Source: Mariprofundus aestuarium (GTDB lineage: Bacteria; Pseudomonadota; Zetaproteobacteria; Mariprofundales; Mariprofundaceae). Taken from it: 64,000 nucleotides of DNA. Under the pieces are notes generated by a model, which did not search any database, was not told the origin of the DNA, and worked only from the letters and a program-made list of their open reading frames with translations. The position numbers were made by a program, and so were the translations under genes. Position 1 is the stretch's first letter. Every line of letters begins with the position of its first letter. Of this stretch, positions 871 through 53,152 are shown in pieces. Location: assembly GCF_002795805.1 (NCBI RefSeq), contig NZ_CP018799.1:613001-677000 (forward strand), given 5' to 3'.

Positions 871-1311
871 GGCATCATTTGTCCCATATTTGTAGAAAAC
901 CTTGCCATTGATGTGGAACTTTTCCTATAAGGCTGCTGTGCTCCTTTCGAACATGATGAAATAAAAGGCCCCTGTCTTTCAGTTTGTTGCTGTTTCAGCT
1001 AAAGCAACGAAGGGTCGAACTATGATGCGCTAGTTCACAGGTTTTGGAGTGGTCGGCTGGCACAGAGGGGTGAACTTTGTCATCAACCAGTAAAGGCATT
1101 AGGTGAACATCGGTGACTTTAGGAGAGTCTCCATTTTTTTGGTTAATTCGAAGGGCAGGCCAGAAGTCAGGAAGTGGAGTCGAACAGCTGATTTTACAAA
1201 TGTTTCACAGTAAGAATCTGGTGTGTATAGTCGCTTTGGGATTGTGGAACGCAGGCGTAGTGAATATGGTCATAATGTATGACTGTGTAGCTTGTTGGAA
1301 GGGAGTGGCTA
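871..1311 (+). other. 441-bp intergenic region, no convincing gene
   Basis: No open frame here has a good ribosome site or recognisable product. A weak hairpin (GGAG-AGT-CTCC near 1121-1131) followed by a T run might terminate upstream transcription. The promoter for the downstream ATPase gene should lie here, but I cannot place it with confidence. Confidence 0.5.
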
Positions 1312-3744
1312 GTGAACACGAATAAACTGAAAGGCCGTTATCTTGAAGTAACTGTCAAGCTAATGAACGGGGAGGGCCTTGATGGCTACCTGCTCGGGTT
1401 TTCTCCAATCATGAAGAAACTCCTTTTCTTTCTAGAGGCGGGAAAAGCTGAAGAGGGACGTAAGCTCAATGCAAAGGATATTGTCTATATTGGTTTCAAG
1501 AGCGCCAAGACCGGCATAGCTGATCGTCCATCAAAGTTGCTGCATATGGATGAGTTAAAGGTAGTTACCATGACTTCGGAGTCATTCAGTGTGCTTGCGC
1601 AAGCACCAGCAACGCATGCACCGGGCTTTTTTGCTATTGGCAAGGATAACGACTTTCCCTTTGAACGTATTTTCTTCTATTCCCATGGAGTTCGCCTGCA
1701 GGAGAGTCCCGAGCGACTGGGCGACCTTCTCGTTGATCAGGATATTATCTCAGCAAAAGATATTGAGGTGGCACTGGAACTTCAGACACAGGCGCTGCTG
1801 CCTCTGGGGACCATTCTGAAAGGGCATGGTAAGCTCAAGGATGAGGATATGGACCAGTTTCTGTCCGAGCAGCGTAGTCGTGACATGAGGCTTGGGGATC
1901 TGCTGGTTGATCAGGATCTGGTAACGACTGAGGATATTGATCAGGCGCTGGAAGAGCAGGCCGAGAGCCAAAAGGATAGCAAGGTGGAGGTGCCGCTTGG
2001 CCACATCCTGTTGAACAAGGGCAAGGTGAAAGATGTCGACATTGATTCGGCGCTTCTGATCCAGAGTCGCCGTAGAATGCGGCTGGGAGAACTGCTGATC
2101 GAGGCCAAGCTGATCACAGAACAGGATCTTCAGTATGCGCTTGAGGAGCAGAAGGTTCGCGGCCAACGTATTGGTGAGGTTTTGCTCAGTACGGAGATCA
2201 TTACCGAAGATCAACTTCTCGAGGCGCTTGCCAAGAAATTCCGTCTGCCAACGCTCAATCTGGATGAATACGAGATCAACCCTATGGCGAGTGTCGAAGT
2301 TGGCCGTGCAACCATTGAGAAGTACAGGATTGTGCCAATCGATACGGACAAGCGATCACTGACTATTGCGCTTGCAGATCCGATGGGGCTGGAGGCATTT
2401 GACGGCATCAGCTTCACGACTGGAAAGAAGGTGCATGAGGTGCTGGTTAAAACCTCGCAGTTGAACTCCCATCTTGAGAAGCTTTTGCAGGAAGAGATCA
2501 TGGAGGATGATCTTGCCTGCGAGTTCCTGCATCACGAGGACCTTGAAGAAGAGGAGCCATTCAATGAGATGCAGATTGCACAGTCGGCTGAGGATGCGCC
2601 GATTGTCCGGCTGGTGAACCGAATTATCCGCAACGGTCTGAGTAAGAAGGTGTCCGATATCCATATTTTGCCACAGGCTAAGAAGATTACGGTGGCTTAT
2701 CGCAAGAACGGCGAGCTGATTGCCGAAAATGCCCTGGACAAGAGCCTGCACCGCCAGATTTCTGCGCGTATCAAGATACTTTCCGATATGGACATCTCAG
2801 AGCAGCGACTGCCGCAGGATGGGCGCCTGCTTCTCAGGGAGGGCAAGCATACCTACGAGTTCCGCGTCTCCTGTATCCCCAATACCTTCGGGGAGTCGCT
2901 GGTACTGCGTGTCCTGAGCAAAGATGTGGCGGTTGATCTCGATACACTGGGCCTGCGTGAGCCGGACATGAAGCAGCTCTCGCTGATGTCGCGTAAACCA
3001 TTCGGCCTAATTCTGGTGACCGGTCCAACGGGTTCCGGTAAGTCGACCACGCTGTTTGCTGTTTTAAAGTCGATTTCCCATCTTCCTGCTCATATTCTCA
3101 CCATTGAGGATCCGGTGGAGTCGGAAATTCCCGGTGCTAACCAGATTCAGGTGCACCAGAAGATCGGCATGACCTTTGCGCGCATTCTGCGCAATGTGCT
3201 GCGTCACGATCCCGACATCATCATGATTGGTGAGATGCGCGATACGGAAACGGCTGAAATCGGTATCGAAGCAGCCCTGACCGGTCACCTGATGTTCTCC
3301 ACGCTGCATACCAATTCGGCTGTGGACACCATTATCCGCCTCAATGATCTAGGTATTCCCAACTATCTTATTGCTCCTGCTCTTCTGGGTATTATCAGCC
3401 AGAACCTGCTAAAGAAGCTCTGCCCTGACTGCCGGCGCCCGATTGATAAGAGTGATCCATCCTTCACGATGATTCGTGACCTCGGGCTGGAGGTGCCGGA
3501 AAACCTCTATGAGAAGGTGGGTTGCGATAAGTGCGAGCAGAGCGGTTATGTCGGCAGGGTGATGCTCTACGAGTTTCTCGTGGTCAACGATAAGATTCGC
3601 CAGGCTATTCACACGGGGAAAAGCGGAGGTGAACTACAGGAGATTGCCGTTGCGAATGGTCTGCAGCCAAAATCTCTACATGCCTTGAAAATGGCGGCTG
3701 ATGGTGAGATCGACCATCACGACTTCATCTACTCGTTGATGTAA
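1312..3744 (+). CDS. PilB/GspE/MshE-type secretion ATPase with repeated MshEN modules
   Basis: Hexameric cytoplasmic ATPase that powers assembly of a type IV pilus or type II secretion-like machine. Starts at GTG with GGAAGGGA about 8 nt upstream. Residues 1-130 form an N-terminal region I do not recognise. Six copies of a roughly 24-residue motif of the form RLG-x2-L-(I/V) follow, at about residues 135, 164, 193, 228, 257 and 286. These are the motif pairs of MshEN domains, which in MshE bind c-di-GMP. A GspE N-terminal-like segment covers about 312-390. The ATPase core has Walker A GPTGSGKST (about 571), Walker B IMIGEMRD, and a tetra-cysteine zinc site (CPDC then CDKC). At 810 aa it is longer than usual PilB (about 570), and the extra length is the repeats. 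It has no pilus genes next to it, but a PilZ gene lies 1.2 kb downstream. PilB, MshE and GspE cannot be told apart here. Confidence 0.9.
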   Translation: MNTNKLKGRYLEVTVKLMNGEGLDGYLLGFSPIMKKLLFFLEAGKAEEGRKLNAKDIVYIGFKSAKTGIADRPSKLLHMDELKVVTMTSESFSVLAQAPATHAPGFFAIGKDNDFPFERIFFYSHGVRLQESPERLGDLLVDQDIISAKDIEVALELQTQALLPLGTILKGHGKLKDEDMDQFLSEQRSRDMRLGDLLVDQDLVTTEDIDQALEEQAESQKDSKVEVPLGHILLNKGKVKDVDIDSALLIQSRRRMRLGELLIEAKLITEQDLQYALEEQKVRGQRIGEVLLSTEIITEDQLLEALAKKFRLPTLNLDEYEINPMASVEVGRATIEKYRIVPIDTDKRSLTIALADPMGLEAFDGISFTTGKKVHEVLVKTSQLNSHLEKLLQEEIMEDDLACEFLHHEDLEEEEPFNEMQIAQSAEDAPIVRLVNRIIRNGLSKKVSDIHILPQAKKITVAYRKNGELIAENALDKSLHRQISARIKILSDMDISEQRLPQDGRLLLREGKHTYEFRVSCIPNTFGESLVLRVLSKDVAVDLDTLGLREPDMKQLSLMSRKPFGLILVTGPTGSGKSTTLFAVLKSISHLPAHILTIEDPVESEIPGANQIQVHQKIGMTFARILRNVLRHDPDIIMIGEMRDTETAEIGIEAALTGHLMFSTLHTNSAVDTIIRLNDLGIPNYLIAPALLGIISQNLLKKLCPDCRRPIDKSDPSFTMIRDLGLEVPENLYEKVGCDKCEQSGYVGRVMLYEFLVVNDKIRQAIHTGKSGGELQEIAVANGLQPKSLHALKMAADGEIDHHDFIYSLM

Positions 3745-33421: not shown

Positions 33422-33462
33422 GAAGATTCTACCTCTGCTTCCCATATCCTTGTTGAAACGAA

Positions 33463-33490
33463 AAAAGGCCCCGCTGCAGCGGGGCCTTTT
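33463..33490. terminator. Terminator after the antiporter gene
   Basis: Perfect 28-bp palindrome: the arm AAAAGGCCCCGCTG is followed by its exact complement. Ends in TTTT, 42 nt after the stop. Confidence 0.85.
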
Positions 33491-33500
33491 CTATAAAGGG

Positions 33501-33563
33501 TGTCTGATGTCGGGGAGGGAGGGGAGGAGGGTGACACCAGACAGGCACGACTTTAGGAAAGTG
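33501..33563 (-). ncRNA. Two-hairpin element with C-rich loop (copy A)
   Basis: Read on the minus strand: a small hairpin (GCACTTT-CCT-AAAGTCGTGC) and then an 11-bp stem (33501-33511 with 33533-33543) enclosing a 21-nt loop. The loop is almost all C and T, includes CCTCCTCCC and repeats CCTCC. The one imperfect pair of the stem is G-U on the minus strand but A-C on the plus strand, which argues for minus-strand transcription. It lies 100 nt downstream of the RND pump gene, so it may be its terminator and/or the 3' end of a small RNA. Its T run is poor. A sister element is at 50741-50814. Confidence 0.4.
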
Positions 33564-33662
33564 CAATGAGGAGCCAGTGAATCCGGCATTAAAAAACATT
33601 TATAATACACAAGCAAAAAAGTCAGGTATTCCCTGTCTGTGGTCGCTCACTATCTCCGTGTA

Positions 33663-47539: not shown

Positions 47540-50140
47540 ATGGATATGAACAGGATGACGCAAAAAGTAAGCGAGGCTATCGCATCAGCGCAGACACTGG
47601 CTACCCGCCTGTCGCACCAGGAGGTCGATGGTGAACACCTGCTGGCTGAGCTGCTGGCGCAAGCTGATGGCCTGGCCCCACGGTTGATCGAGAAGTGTGG
47701 CCTCTCCATTGATGTCATCAAAGCAAAGGTTGAGAAGTCGCTCTCAAAACGGCCAAAGGTGACGCTTGGTTCTACGCAGGCCAACACCCTCTATATCACC
47801 CCGCGTCTTCAGCAGCTCTTTATCCATGCCGAGAGTGAAGCGAAACAGCTTCAGGATGATTATATCTCGGTCGAACATCTGCTGCTCGCTTTTATCGCAG
47901 AGGGTGATGCAACAGATGCTGGCAAGGCATTTAGGGAGGTTGGCATTACCCGTGATGCTTTCATGCAGGCACTGGAGAAGGTGCGTGGCCATCAGCGGGT
48001 CACCAGCGATGCTCCTGAATCACAGTACGAAGCCCTGAAGAAATATGGTGTCGACTTAGTTGAGATGGCCAAGCGCGGCAAGCTTGATCCGGTGATCGGC
48101 CGTGATACGGAGATTCGTTCTGTGATCCGTATCCTTTCCCGCAAAACCAAAAATAACCCGGTACTGATCGGCGAACCCGGCGTCGGTAAAACTGCAATTG
48201 CCGAGGGGCTTGCTCAGCGTATCGTTTCCGGAGATGTGCCGGAAGGGCTGAAGGATCGCAACCTCTTCTCACTCGATATGGCCGCGCTGATGGCCGGTGC
48301 GAAATACCGTGGTGAGTTCGAGGAGCGCTTAAAGGCGGTACTCAAAGAGATCAAGGAGTCGGAAGGGCGTACGCTGCTCTTTATCGACGAGCTGCATACG
48401 ATTGTTGGTGCAGGTAAAACCGAGGGTAGTTCTGATGCTGGCAATATGCTCAAGCCGATGCTGGCGCGCGGTGAGCTGCACTGTATAGGTGCGACCACAC
48501 TGGATGAATACCGCCGCTATATTGAAAAGGATGCAGCCCTTGAGCGGCGTTTCCAGCCGATCATTGTCGATGCTCCCAATGTCGAGGATACCATCTCAAT
48601 CCTGAGGGGGTTGCGCGAACGATTCGAACTTCATCACGGTGTACACATCGCGGATGCTTCACTGGTGGCGGCGGCCACCCTCTCCGATCGCTATATATCT
48701 GATCGTTTCCTGCCCGATAAGGCGATTGATCTGGTCGATGAGGCGTGCGCTTCGATTCGTACCGAGATGGACTCAATGCCGGCCGAGCTGGATGAGATCA
48801 CCCGCAAGACAATGCGCCTAGAGATTGAGGAAACGGCACTCAAAAAAGAGAAGGATGCTTCAAGCCAGGAGCGATTGAAGAGCCTGCGCAAGGAGCTGGC
48901 CAATCTACAGGATAGGCGCGATGTGATGCGGTCGCAGTGGGAGAAGGAGAAGGGGGCGATCAGTCTGGTCCAGTCATTGCGTGAGAAGATCGAGAAAACC
49001 CGACTGGAGATCGAAGCTGCCGAGCGCAGGTATGAGCTGGAGAAGGTGGCTACACTGCGCTACGGCACCTTGCCTGACCTGGAGAAGGAGCTGGCAGAAG
49101 TGGAGCAGCAGGCCAGCGCTCATCGCAGTATACTGCGCGAGGAGGTGAGCGAGGAGGAGATTGCCGAAGTGGTGGCGCGCTGGACCGGCATTCCGGTAAC
49201 GCGCCTGCTGGAAGGTGAACGCGAAAAACTTCTCAAGCTCGAGTCGGTTCTGCATGAGCGGGTGATCGGGCAGGACGAGGCGGTGAAGGCTGTAGCTGAT
49301 GCAGTGCTGCGTGCACGCGCCGGCATCCGTGATCGCCATCGCCCGATTGGATCGTTTCTTTTCCTAGGCCCTACCGGTGTCGGTAAAACCGAGCTTGCGC
49401 GCACCCTTGCCCGCTCCCTGTTTGATGCCGAGGAGAATATGGTGCGTATCGACATGTCCGAATATATGGAGAAGCATACCGTCTCAAGGCTGGTCGGAGC
49501 GCCTCCGGGGTATGTCGGTTTTGAAGAGGGCGGGCAGCTGACCGAAGCGGTACGGCGCAAACCCTACTGCGTACTGCTACTCGATGAAGTGGAGAAGGCG
49601 CATCCGGATGTGTTCAACATCCTGTTGCAACTGCTTGATGACGGCCGACTGACCGACAGTCACGGGCGTACCGTCAATTTCCAGAATACAATTATTATTA
49701 TGACCAGCAATATCGGGTCGGAATACCTGCTTGATGGTATTGATCTCCATGGTGTGATCAGTGATTCGGCCCGGGCGCAGGTGATGGCAGCACTGCGTGG
49801 CCACTTCCGCCCCGAGTTTCTTAACCGGGTGGATGATACGGTCCTCTTTCAGCCGCTTAGCGAAGCAGCGATTGCCGAGGTGGTGGCGCTGTTCCTTTCT
49901 GAACTGCAGGCACGCCTGCATGACCAGCAGATTACACTTGAGGTAACAAAAGCTGCTACAGCATGGCTGGTCAGTGAGGGTTATGATCCCGTCTACGGCG
50001 CACGGCCACTGAAACGCTTTATCCAGCAGCACCTGGAGACACCAGTGGCACGGCTGCTGATCGCGGGTGAGGTGCTGCCCGGCGGCAGCATCACGGTTGA
50101 TGTGGATGGCGGCGTATTAACCGTGAAAAACAGGCCTTAG
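47540..50140 (+). CDS. clpB: Disaggregase ClpB
   Basis: Hexameric Hsp100 ATPase that, with DnaK, rescues aggregated proteins. The N-terminal Clp-N repeats (about 1-145), the first AAA domain (Walker A GEPGVGKT near 211), a coiled-coil middle domain (about 410-530) and the second AAA domain (Walker [10 protein letters not shown] near 610) complete 866 aa, as in E. coli ClpB (857). AGGAG precedes the ATG. Only 69 nt separate it from the preceding kinase gene, and these contain a sigma-32-type promoter. Confidence 0.98.
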
Positions 50141-50170
50141 AACTAAAAAGTAAACCAGAGAAAAACGGGT

Positions 50171-50193
50171 TCCCCCCTAAGGGGGATTCTTTT
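50171..50193 (+). terminator. Intrinsic terminator of clpB
   Basis: TCCCCC-CTAA-GGGGGA followed by TTCTTTT, 30 nt after the stop. Confidence 0.7.
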
Positions 50194-50224
50194 CCACTGC
50201 CCTTCGTTCTTGTCAAGCTTAGGG

Positions 50225-50253
50225 TTGACACCATGAGGCGGCATGCGTAGCAA
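50225..50253 (+). promoter_or_regulatory. Candidate promoter of the cytochrome c gene
   Basis: Perfect -35 TTGACA (50225-50230), 17-nt spacer and weak -10 TAGCAA. It lies 32 nt before the cytochrome ATG and its strong ribosome site. Confidence 0.4.
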
Positions 50254-50284
50254 GTCATCTCCAAATTCGAGAGGAGGATTTATC

Positions 50285-50653
50285 ATGAAAAAAGCACTAA
50301 TGATCGCAGCTGCAGCTGCATTCGTAATGGGCGGCATGGCAGCTACTGCTGATGCAAGCGCTCTGGGCAAGTGTAAAGCTTGTCACAAACTGGATTCTGC
50401 TGACAAAAAAGTTGGCCCAGGCCTGAAAGGCATTGCTGGCAAGACTCAGGGTTCTTTGGAAGGCTTCAAGTATGGTTCATACCTGAAAGCCCAGAACGCT
50501 GCTGGCGCAGTATGGGACGACGCAGCTCTGGAAGCATGGGTATGTGGTTCTAAAGACGTTGCCAAGGCTGCACACGGCAAGTCCAAGATGCCTAACCAGA
50601 AAGTATGTGGTGATGATGCCAAGGCTGCTGTTGCTGAGCTGAAAGCTCTGTAA
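50285..50653 (+). CDS. Small periplasmic cytochrome c
   Basis: Mono-heme class I cytochrome c, 122 aa with signal peptide (cleavage after ATADA near residue 24). The heme site is CKACH, directly after the signal, and the axial methionine is probably the one in KSKMPNQ. Two further cysteines (WVCGS and KVCGD) may form a disulfide. GAGGAGG lies before the ATG. Codons are strongly biased to GCT/GCA, CTG and AAA, as in groEL, which suggests high expression. A soluble electron carrier in the main respiratory path is the likely role; in an iron oxidiser it could take electrons from the outer membrane. Closed by its own terminator. Confidence 0.9.
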   Translation: MKKALMIAAAAAFVMGGMAATADASALGKCKACHKLDSADKKVGPGLKGIAGKTQGSLEGFKYGSYLKAQNAAGAVWDDAALEAWVCGSKDVAKAAHGKSKMPNQKVCGDDAKAAVAELKAL

Positions 50654-50674
50654 GAAGGTTTAAACCTGATTGAG

Positions 50675-50705
50675 GCGGTCCATGGAAACATGGGCCGCTT
50701 TTTTT
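50675..50705 (+). terminator. Intrinsic terminator of the cytochrome c gene
   Basis: GCGGTCCATG-GAAA-CATGGGCCGC with seven T; a GAAA tetraloop closes the stem. Confidence 0.9.
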
Positions 50706-50740
50706 GTGTCTGTTGATGAATCAAGCCGGGAATAAAAAAA

Positions 50741-50814
50741 GACCGGACGCCTTTCTGAGGGGGGAGGGGAGTGAAAGGCGCCCGGTCCGTGCTTCCGAAG
50801 GTATGGAGAAGCAC
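50741..50814 (-). ncRNA. Two-hairpin element with C-rich loop (copy B)
   Basis: On the minus strand: a perfect 7-bp hairpin (GTGCTTC / GAAGCAC, 12-nt loop), then a 15-bp stem (50741-50755 with 50773-50787) with a 17-nt loop ACTCCCCTCCCCCCTCA, then TTTTTTT. The only imperfect pair is G-U on the minus strand and A-C on the plus strand. It lies downstream of the lipoprotein gene and can serve as its terminator. Architecture, orientation and C-rich loop match the element at 33501-33563. Confidence 0.5.
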
Positions 50815-50946
50815 TTCTTTCTGTAGTTTTTATCCAGCAAATCCTATGCCAATACGATTATAGACCAGTTCATGCCGAATGGATAGGTATAGGCCGAAAC
50901 TGTGCCAAAATTACAGGCAGCAGCTATTTACGAATTGGGCTGTGGA

Positions 50947-51435
50947 TTAATAGCTTTTCGGATTTGAGAGTGATTTAATGATCGGCTTTGCATAGCCCAT
51001 CTTCCCCAACTCTTTGTGGGCAACCTCTTTTTCAATCGCATCAACAAAATTGATATCTGCGGCGAACAGTTTACAGATGCGGTGATACTTGATGTAGTAG
51101 GTTTGTCCTGCCTCGAACTCAAAAATCTCTTTTCCCTGGTCGAATTGCGTATAGCGGGTCAGCATATTCTTGACTTCGATGATATACAGGCCGGGTTTTG
51201 CAAGAACGGAGCTGTAGGCACCGTTACCGAGAATGACGACATCTTCGCCGTTCGCCAGGAAATAGAGTGGGTCGGTCAGGTTGCAGAGATCGGCTGGCCG
51301 GTAAATGACAACCAGTGCCTTGCTCTGATCAGTCAGCTCTACAGGTTGAAACTTCGCCCCGAGTGAGACGCAGCCTGCACTCAACAGGATGAGGCCGATG
51401 GTAATGGCTCTGGATATGGAGCGAACACCTTTCAT
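50947..51435 (-). CDS. Lipoprotein (DUF2846-like)
   Basis: Predicted lipoprotein of 162 aa. The lipobox is LLSAGC near residue 22, so the mature protein starts at that cysteine. The rest is a beta-rich domain with ALVVIYRP and ETYYIKY-like (QTYYIKYHR) features reminiscent of DUF2846. ATG at 51435 has GGAGG 12 nt upstream; a TTG at 51471 that overlaps the ligase stop is an alternative. Last gene of the large minus-strand operon by position, but perhaps not part of its function. Confidence 0.75.
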   Translation of the reverse strand: MKGVRSISRAITIGLILLSAGCVSLGAKFQPVELTDQSKALVVIYRPADLCNLTDPLYFLANGEDVVILGNGAYSSVLAKPGLYIIEVKNMLTRYTQFDQGKEIFEFEAGQTYYIKYHRICKLFAADINFVDAIEKEVAHKELGKMGYAKPIIKSLSNPKSY

Positions 51436-51463
51436 ATTACGCAATATCCTCCACGTTTCATGT

Positions 51464-53152
51464 TTATTCAAGCGATTCCATCATGATCTCGCGCATGCGG
51501 AACTTTTGCAGTTTACCTGTAATAGTTACCGGGAACGCATCCACAAAGCGGATATGGTGTGGCACCTTGAAGTGGGCGAGCCTCTCCCGGCAGAATTCGC
51601 GTAGCTCATTCTCATTCAATGTTTGACCATCATGCAGCTCGATCCAGGCGGCAATCTCTTCACCATAATAGTCATCAGGAATCCCGAACACTGCCACTTC
51701 AGCTACCTTCGGATGAGAATAGATGACATCCTCGATTTCGCGCGGATAGATGTTTTCACCTCCCCGTATAATCATCTCCTTCAGACGTCCGGTGATACGC
51801 AGGTAACCATCCGCATCCATGAGACCGAGATCACCGGAGTGCAGCCAGCCTGCAGCATCGATGGCTGCGGCGGTGGCTTCTTTATCGCCGAAATATCCCT
51901 TCATAATATGGTAACCACGAAAACAGATCTCCCCAACTGTATTGATCGGTTGCGTTGCACCGTTTTGAGTATCGATAACTTTCACCTCCTGATGTGGAAG
52001 ATTGCTGCCCACCGTTTCGATGCGGCGCTCGAAGTTGTCCTCGCGCCGGGTTAGGTGGGTTAGCGGTGAAGCCTCGGTCTGTCCGTAACCGATCAGGATT
52101 TCACTGCAGTGCATCTCTTCGATCACCCGCCGCATCAGCACTGGCGGACAGGGGGCTCCGGCCATAATGCCTGTGCGAAGGCTGCTGAGGTTAAAGCTTT
52201 TGAATTGCGGGTGCTCCAGTTCAGCGATAAACATGGTTGGCACACCGTGCAGGGCTGTGCAGTGCTCTTGATCAATGGCTTTAAGAACCAGCCCTGCATC
52301 AAAGTGTTCACACGGAATCACGGCGCATGCGCCGACACTGAGGCAGAGAAGGTTAGCCAGTACCATGCCGAAGCAGTGGTAGAAGGGCACAGGAATAGCC
52401 AGACGATCGCATTCGGTGAAATGCATGGCAAGGGCTGAGCACCATGCGTTGTTGAGGATGTTGTGGTGGGTGAGGATCACCGCCTTTGGAAAGCCGGTCG
52501 TGCCTGAGGTGTACTGGATATTGATCGGGTCATCGATATCGAGTGTGGCAGTGATTGCATCAAGCTGCCCTGAGTTGATGGAGTCAGCTGCAGTGATCAC
52601 CTCCTGCCAAGTGGTGAAACCGGAATAGGGGTGCCCAGTATTTTCAGGTGAACTGGGCTCATAGAGCACAACACGCTTGAGGTCTGGGAATTGGCTGCTG
52701 GTCAATCTGTTTGCGGGCATCGCTTTCAGCTCAGGAATGAGTTCAACCAGCATGGTCACGTAATCGCTCTTCCTGAAGGCCGGTATGGTGAAGATGGCAG
52801 AAAGGTCGGAGCGCTCAATAGCATAGGCGAGCTCTTTTGAACGGTAGGCCGGATTAATGTTAACCAGCACTGCCCCGATACGGGTAGTGGCAATCTGCAA
52901 TAGCAGCCACTCAATATTGTTGGTCGCCCAGATGCCCACCCGATCGCCGCGTTTTATCCCGATACTGACCAGACCGCAGGCCAGACGGTCACTCTCCTCT
53001 TTTAGCCCTGCATAGCTCAAACGCCTGTTCTGGGGGAGTGATACCACTGCTTCACGGTCACCGAAGCGGGCGACGATGCTGGCAAAGTGTTCTGGGATCG
53101 TTACCCCGAGCAGTGGAACCTCTCCTCCGCGATGCAGGTAACTGTGTTTCAT
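51464..53152 (-). CDS. AMP-forming acyl-CoA ligase
   Basis: Activates a carboxylic acid to its CoA thioester through an acyl-adenylate. ANL-superfamily motifs are intact: IQYTSGTTGFPKAVILTHHN (P-loop, near 197), GYGQTEASP, SGDLGLMDADGYLRITGR and the catalytic lysine near the end in TITGKLQKFRMRE. Length 562 aa matches medium-chain FadK/AcsF-type enzymes. It overlaps the beta subunit gene of the 2-oxoacid oxidoreductase by 4 nt, suggesting that its product or substrate is shared with that enzyme. Chain length cannot be told. Confidence 0.92.
   Translation of the reverse strand: MKHSYLHRGGEVPLLGVTIPEHFASIVARFGDREAVVSLPQNRRLSYAGLKEESDRLACGLVSIGIKRGDRVGIWATNNIEWLLLQIATTRIGAVLVNINPAYRSKELAYAIERSDLSAIFTIPAFRKSDYVTMLVELIPELKAMPANRLTSSQFPDLKRVVLYEPSSPENTGHPYSGFTTWQEVITAADSINSGQLDAITATLDIDDPINIQYTSGTTGFPKAVILTHHNILNNAWCSALAMHFTECDRLAIPVPFYHCFGMVLANLLCLSVGACAVIPCEHFDAGLVLKAIDQEHCTALHGVPTMFIAELEHPQFKSFNLSSLRTGIMAGAPCPPVLMRRVIEEMHCSEILIGYGQTEASPLTHLTRREDNFERRIETVGSNLPHQEVKVIDTQNGATQPINTVGEICFRGYHIMKGYFGDKEATAAAIDAAGWLHSGDLGLMDADGYLRITGRLKEMIIRGGENIYPREIEDVIYSHPKVAEVAVFGIPDDYYGEEIAAWIELHDGQTLNENELREFCRERLAHFKVPHHIRFVDAFPVTITGKLQKFRMREIMMESLE

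Follow-up and report, generated by a model that had tools for sequence, protein, structure and literature searches.

The window analysed here comprises 64,000 nucleotides of the genome of Mariprofundus aestuarium, a marine bacterium that oxidises iron. On its minus strand, a two-hairpin element, termed B, follows a same-strand gene encoding a DUF2846-like lipoprotein (33.2 bits, just below the cut-off of 34.3; 37 bits in the relative G015) and precedes a convergent gene for a small CxxCH protein, for which no Pfam match was obtained in the window copy. The features of B and of a related element, copy A, are listed in Table 1. The fold of B displays a 5' hairpin with a 7-bp core, GTGCTTC/GAAGCAC (8 pairs when a U-G is counted), which directly abuts a terminator stem of 15 pairs, or 16 with the terminal G-U, that includes one internal G-U. 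The preliminary description had proposed these components, namely a 15-bp stem with a 17-nt loop, which the fold locates exactly, a perfect 7-bp hairpin before it and seven T after it, and all of them are present; its statement that the loop consists purely of C and T holds throughout the interior but not at the ends, each of which carries one A. The minimum free energy of B is -39.8 kcal/mol versus -21.1 +/- 3.0 kcal/mol in 200 dinucleotide shuffles (z -6.2), none of which (0/200) is as stable; the two hairpins are genuine, and a fold of this stability is far from what chance would give. A minus-strand reading frame spanning the hairpins (50446-50814) was rejected as coding sequence, since it lies antisense to an adjacent gene and relatives differ in the length of the 5' hairpin loop. 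A separate short hairpin, TCCCCCCTAAGGGGGA, which is terminator-like on both strands, is located at 50171-50186 in the gap between the clpB-like gene and the CxxCH-protein gene.

Table 1. Sequence and structural features of element B and copy A (window coordinates).
Feature	Position	Strand	Basis
5' hairpin, 7-bp core	50789..50814	minus	fold; loop varies in sequence and length; covariation
Terminator hairpin, 16 pairs, C-rich loop	50740..50788	minus	fold; covariation
C-rich loop ACTCCCCTCCCCCCTCA, 17 nt, proposed pairing seed	50756..50772	minus	loop conservation
Terminator T run, seven T	50734..50740	minus	sequence
Predicted small RNA, ~92 nt	50734..50825	minus	inferred from promoter and terminator
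Sigma-54 promoter TTGGCATAGGATTTGCT	50836..50852	minus	11/13 consensus positions
TATAAT, possible overlapping sigma-70 -10 box	50857..50862	minus	sequence
Copy A, distinct RNA family sharing the loop type of B, and its terminator	33461..33543	minus	

DNA similarity searches over 100 genomes identified B in G001, G008 and G015 in addition to its own genome (G000), all of one genus; weak DNA matches of 24-27 nt in G007 and G076 lacked the hairpins. A covariance model of these four syntenic copies (R1), searched against the same 100 genomes, produced matches at E <= 1 in 25 of them, the best new ones in G016 (E 4.4e-12) and G002 (E 2.4e-8), the remainder being weak. One of the latter, a second G002 copy (E 0.0019), displays a sigma-54 site and a similar terminator hairpin. 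It scored below four promoterless R1 matches, in G022, G021, G061 and G083, which have other stems and were left out of the set, and it was admitted only after its sigma-54 site had been seen; having been chosen with its promoter already in view, it is not independent evidence. The set thus comprises seven copies in six genomes (G000, G001, G002 twice, G008, G015 and G016), all of the same genus, corresponding to 6 of its 23 genomes. When a model of all seven copies (R3) was searched against 78 genomes of the class, the seven were recovered at E <= 4.5e-11, scores that are high by construction because the copies are training members. The next match (E 1.1e-5) has another stem, and this search, whose filters lose some weak matches, yielded nothing B-like in the remaining 55 class genomes.

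Both helices covary. Over the seven copies, 11 of the 23 pairs changed on both sides and 95.6% of the cells show standard pairing compared with 84.6% after shuffling, in an alignment that was fitted to the model and is biased towards the structure. Neither value, nor the covariation score, was reached in any of 500 shuffles, and the number of pair types was reached in 8/500. Omission of the second G002 copy, again with a model-fitted and similarly biased alignment, gave 11/23 pairs and 96.4% versus 86.3% shuffled (0/500; pair types 6/500). In the 5' hairpin, five of seven pairs changed on both sides with or without the second G002 copy, each double change being carried by one sequence when that copy is omitted, and in the terminator helix 6 of 16 pairs did so, with 95.4% of cells paired. 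The structure of B is therefore well supported.

The terminator loop, which is 13-18 nt long with limits drawn by hand, is C-rich in 7/7 copies, 103 of its 112 bases being pyrimidine (92%) and 66% being C; for the 5' hairpin loops of the seven copies, the corresponding values are 75% and 42%. Across the four syntenic copies, the terminator loop has invariant bases at 10 of 17 positions and the 5' hairpin loop at none. The preliminary description had viewed B as a conserved RNA structure that keeps its loop type, a view that the covariation and the loop composition bear out; the relatives do not show an ordinary terminator whose loop varies, the outcome that it had named as speaking against it. 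It had also pointed to mRNAs with strong Shine-Dalgarno sites as possible targets of the loop, and had mentioned neither the sigma-54 promoter nor the other C-loop RNAs of the class nor the lack of Hfq. Such conservation bears on the proposal that B is a plain intrinsic terminator, or a 3'-UTR fragment of the upstream lipoprotein gene, whose C-rich loop is incidental. In favour of this proposal, the gene before B in the window is on the same strand, B terminates in a run of T, and an RNA derived from a 3'-UTR is conceivable. However, a simple scan for T-tailed hairpins in 424 kb of the M. aestuarium genome (the window plus 18 sampled stretches) retrieved 74. Loops of 10 nt or more occur in 24 of them, and B is the only C-rich one among these (1/24, against 7/7 copies of B), in a count that leaves out C-rich hairpins without a T tail of their own, such as copy A.

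Sigma-54 promoters follow the consensus YTGGCACG-N4-TTGCW used here, in which GG and GC stand ten bases apart. In TTGGCATAGGATTTGCT, GG occupies 50850-50849 and GC 50838-50837, with 10 bases between them, and the site ends 21 nt ahead of the 5' hairpin. Sites matching 11-12 of 13 positions are found in 6/7 copies (5/6 without the second G002 copy), and the sites stand 7-11 nt before the modelled RNA; the G008 copy has lost the promoter GG and retains 9/13 positions. Among random 100-nt stretches of the genome, at least 11/13 positions were matched in 20/5000 and 12/13 in 1/5000. None of 23 further R3 matches, representing other C-loop hairpins, has a site of 11/13 or better (maximum 10/13), on the basis of 30 of the 31 listed matches including the seven B copies, the last one having no locus. 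The promoter sequence lay outside the covariance models, and every one of the six genomes that carry B encodes RpoN (PF04552 over the cut-off). The promoter of B is well supported, and its sigma-54 type means that an enhancer-binding activator would be needed; the upstream regions of the seven copies contain no 8-mer common to at least four of them, and no common dyad was seen. From the spacing, transcription would start near 50825, 12 bases past the -12 C of the promoter. The TATAAT sequence occurs, among the four syntenic copies, only in the window and in G008, where it might serve sigma-70; no good -35 box was seen by eye for it and a promoter scan reports none.

The gene neighbourhood of B differs among the copies. 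In G000, G001, G008 and G015 the element is located between the lipoprotein gene and the convergent CxxCH-protein gene described above. The G016 copy and one of the two in G002 adjoin an SLT/LysM transglycosylase gene, and the genes downstream of them, of the His_Phos_1 and MFS_1 types, are convergent. The second G002 copy has a divergent GFA-domain gene upstream and a same-strand CP_ATPgrasp gene that begins 138 nt downstream; a convergent frame in this region was rejected as a mere shadow of the CP_ATPgrasp gene. The promoter box, which in the syntenic copies stands between the upstream gene and the hairpins, argues together with the divergent upstream gene of this one copy against B as the mere 3' end of a transcript, and a plain terminator or 3'-UTR fragment is thus an improbable explanation. 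The downstream genes bear likewise on a cis-acting leader or attenuator. Two hairpins of which the last is a terminator look attenuator-like, the CP_ATPgrasp gene would be suitably placed, and copy A has weak matches to leaders, below gathering thresholds. The next downstream gene is, however, convergent for 6/7 copies and co-directional for 1/7, so that six of the seven have no downstream gene to act on in cis. Gene order thus largely refutes cis regulation, which we consider very unlikely, although the second G002 copy might act on the CP_ATPgrasp gene.

Taken from its sequence features, B is very probably a gene for a regulatory RNA of ~90 nt and not just a terminator. The account that we favour, and judge to be reasonably probable, is that B specifies a sigma-54-driven, trans-acting small RNA whose C-rich terminator loop pairs with G-rich Shine-Dalgarno regions independently of Hfq. 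Sigma-54 RNA polymerase, together with an enhancer-binding activator that answers some signal, would transcribe ~92 nt; the 5' hairpin would protect this RNA, and the second hairpin would end transcription and display the C-rich loop of 13-18 nt. Pairing of this loop in trans, with no need of Hfq, to the G-rich Shine-Dalgarno regions of mRNAs would then reduce their translation. Transcription, activator, mRNA pairing and repression are all inferred. Because the loop stays rich in C while the stems change, its most plausible role is that of a seed that pairs with G-rich sequence. Predicted pairing energies with the B loop of -16 kcal/mol or lower were found for 22 of 329 start regions, mechanically called from the 424-kb sample, and for 8 of 329 internal regions, a modest excess that is expected for any C-rich sequence because Shine-Dalgarno sites are G-rich. 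The same search pointed to many G-rich Shine-Dalgarno sites. One candidate target, a FecR-domain gene (Shine-Dalgarno ggagggg), was followed and rejected, as it is not conserved alongside B: matches occur in 5 of the 23 genus genomes including M. aestuarium, three of them at 28-31% identity, and the five other B-carrying genomes gave no match. Support for the mechanism therefore comes from its analogy to the small RNAs B11, RepG, CtrR3 and NfeR1.

A different function for the same loop would be that of a decoy, in which it binds and titrates a C-preferring RNA-binding protein in a sponge-like manner. The existence of many RNAs in the class with the same loop on different stems would also be expected for a protein ligand. 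Known protein decoys, however, usually repeat their motif within one RNA, and the C-rich motif is single in B; moreover, the accessible reports on B11, RepG and CtrR3 describe their C-rich loops as base-pairing. A decoy is accordingly rated as unlikely.

Searches with Rfam at gathering thresholds over the window match B to no family, and at E values up to 5 over 50100-51500 neither 6C nor ar14 nor any other family was detected at B, apart from a weak sroB match (25.4 bits versus a gathering threshold of 44). This match was discarded, as it lies on the opposite strand and covers the terminator of the adjacent gene. B is therefore not a member of 6C RNA (RF01066), for which a sub-threshold match (22.2 bits; gathering 47) was found elsewhere, at the C-loop hairpin of locus L234 described below. 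Nor is it a member of ar14 (RF02344), since it has no model match and no CCUCCUCCC in its loop; sub-threshold ar14 matches were obtained for copy A (23 bits) and L234 (21.8 bits) against a gathering threshold of 58.8. B does share with RepG and B11 an intrinsic terminator hairpin with a conserved C-rich loop. The comparisons that follow refer to the accessible text of each report. In mycobacteria, which lack Hfq, the C-rich loop of the B11 terminator pairs with G-tracks near ribosome-binding sites (PMC12395582). B resembles B11/6C in carrying a C-rich loop in an intrinsic terminator, which is the proposed seed in B, and in a host without detected Hfq; it differs in having one such loop versus two cytosine-rich loops in B11, in belonging to another phylum and in its sigma-54 promoter. 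Similarly, RepG of Helicobacter pylori pairs with G-rich leaders through a C/U-rich loop in its terminator hairpin (PMC8295292), a resemblance to B drawn by description and not by sequence. The same holds for CtrR3 of Chlamydia trachomatis, a Gram-negative bacterium without Hfq, where a large hairpin loop, rich in C and complementary to ribosome-binding sites, constitutes the seed (PMC9426522); the accessible text places that loop in no terminator and mentions no sigma-54 promoter, both of which are features of B.

The NfeR1/ar14 RNAs of rhizobia have anti-SD loops, are Hfq-independent and are tied to nitrogen control (PMC10746234). They display the same anti-SD loop type on stems of differing sequence, but present it on three hairpins with identical CCUCCUCCC, in contrast with the one C-rich loop of B, which lacks this motif; copy A contains CCUCCUCCC. 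The NfeR1 promoter, as given in the accessible text, carries no sigma-54 signature (PMC10746234), unlike that of B. A terminator loop is also discussed for LhrC, a multicopy small RNA of Listeria (PMC4132741), which belongs to another phylum, is regulated by LisRK and is likened to B by description, not by sequence. Literature searches, with a coverage that misses most subscription papers and so is no proof of novelty, returned no earlier description of a small RNA in Zetaproteobacteria or Mariprofundus, and no earlier RpoN-dependent small RNA with a C-rich terminator loop such as B.

The preliminary description had taken B and copy A for two copies of one element in which the stems differ and the shape and loop type are kept. 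The stems do differ and the C-rich loop type is common to both, but the overall shapes are not alike: the C-rich loop is part of the terminator hairpin in B, and of a hairpin preceding the terminator in copy A. A and B are thus not copies of one sequence. The copy A hairpin (33501-33543, minus strand) has an 11-bp stem and a 21-nt C-rich loop, with a separate terminator after it. A covariance model of 25 copy A sequences finds matches in 72/78 class genomes at E 0.01 and in 63/78 at 1e-6, counts that include the training genomes and, among weak matches, plain terminators. Both helices of copy A covary (10/21 pairs) and its loop is C-rich throughout the alignment, from which G038 (a plain terminator only), the same-phylum genomes G076, G080, G088 and G099, the G061 row, G011 (one of a near-identical pair) and second copies without a locus were left out. 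In many members a TTAAT-N6-TTCAC repeat with 11-bp spacing precedes copy A (33461-33640 in the window, minus strand); these repeats recall, and may represent, OmpR-family sites. Some genomes, such as G025 and G050, contain closely spaced second copies of the A family. Two more A-like RNAs with C-rich loops, L120 (G000:C1:1832519-1832604) and L182 (near G000:C1:604995), are found in the M. aestuarium genome, with similar AT-rich repeats upstream.

Copy A also bears on the possibility that these loops act as DNA, forming a G-quadruplex or i-motif from the G-rich and C-rich strands, because its loop holds four C-runs of at least three. The loops of the seven B copies contain one to three such runs, too few for a canonical intramolecular quadruplex, and the flanking stems covary as RNA. 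A DNA-level element is the explanation of B to which we attach the least weight, as extremely unlikely.

C-rich loops also occur on further stems. The pattern YCCCCTCCCY has 22 sites in the M. aestuarium genome versus 16 for a reversed control, and six of the 22, judged by eye on folds, lie in clear hairpin loops: A, B, the pair of A-like RNAs, a GGCCTGCC hairpin and a sixth one. Another two GGCCTGCC hairpins bring this genome to at least eight C-rich-loop hairpins including B. Across the class, GGCCTGCC-loop-GGCAGGCC occurs 55 times in 31/78 genomes, compared with no occurrence of the reversed control, and in 46 of the 55 (26 genomes) the loop is C-rich on one strand. On their C-rich strand, all three GGCCTGCC hairpins of M. 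aestuarium run into a T-rich tail, and two of them come after 6S-like sequence. These are L234 (G000:C1:2043500-2046500), where a 6S-like sequence (39.2 bits and E 1.1e-6 against RF00013, below the gathering threshold of 46.4) is followed by a terminator-like GGCCTGCC hairpin with a C-rich loop, and L235 (G000:C1:2048300-2051300), which aligns with the 6S-like sequence of L234 and also has such a hairpin after it; a similar arrangement is found in G022 (L049). Stems of the GGCGGGTGCAGGCGG type with C-rich loops form another family (L174, L177, L166, L172 and L058, in G008, G001, G007, G022 and G028). At L198, a SAM riboswitch (RF00162, 58.7 bits; 1231-1364, minus strand) lies near a C-rich-loop hairpin with the stem GCCGTGTC.

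Hfq was detected in 0/78 class genomes with Pfam at the cut-off; many of these genomes are incomplete, but 39 combine a completeness of 90% or more with a contamination of 5% or less. The same search was positive for 5 of 14 control genomes, and G042 gave one weak sub-threshold match. In the accessible text of the Chlamydia study, its authors already connect G/C-rich pairing with the lack of Hfq (PMC9426522). A broader and more tentative proposal, which we hold to be possible but somewhat doubtful, is that Zetaproteobacteria possess a class-wide network free of Hfq, in which one C-rich seed loop has been grafted on many unrelated RNA scaffolds so that signals converge on G-rich ribosome-binding sites. 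The scaffolds would include copy A and the A-like RNAs with their OmpR-like promoter repeats, the sigma-54-dependent B and the 6S-like terminators, and differing signals would thereby reach a common set of such sites; strong G-C pairing would make an RNA chaperone unnecessary. A conserved case in Zetaproteobacteria would extend the idea that G/C-rich pairing accompanies the lack of Hfq to a whole class, and the C-loop loci named here, with sigma-54 as a clear regulator, would provide starting points for testing it.
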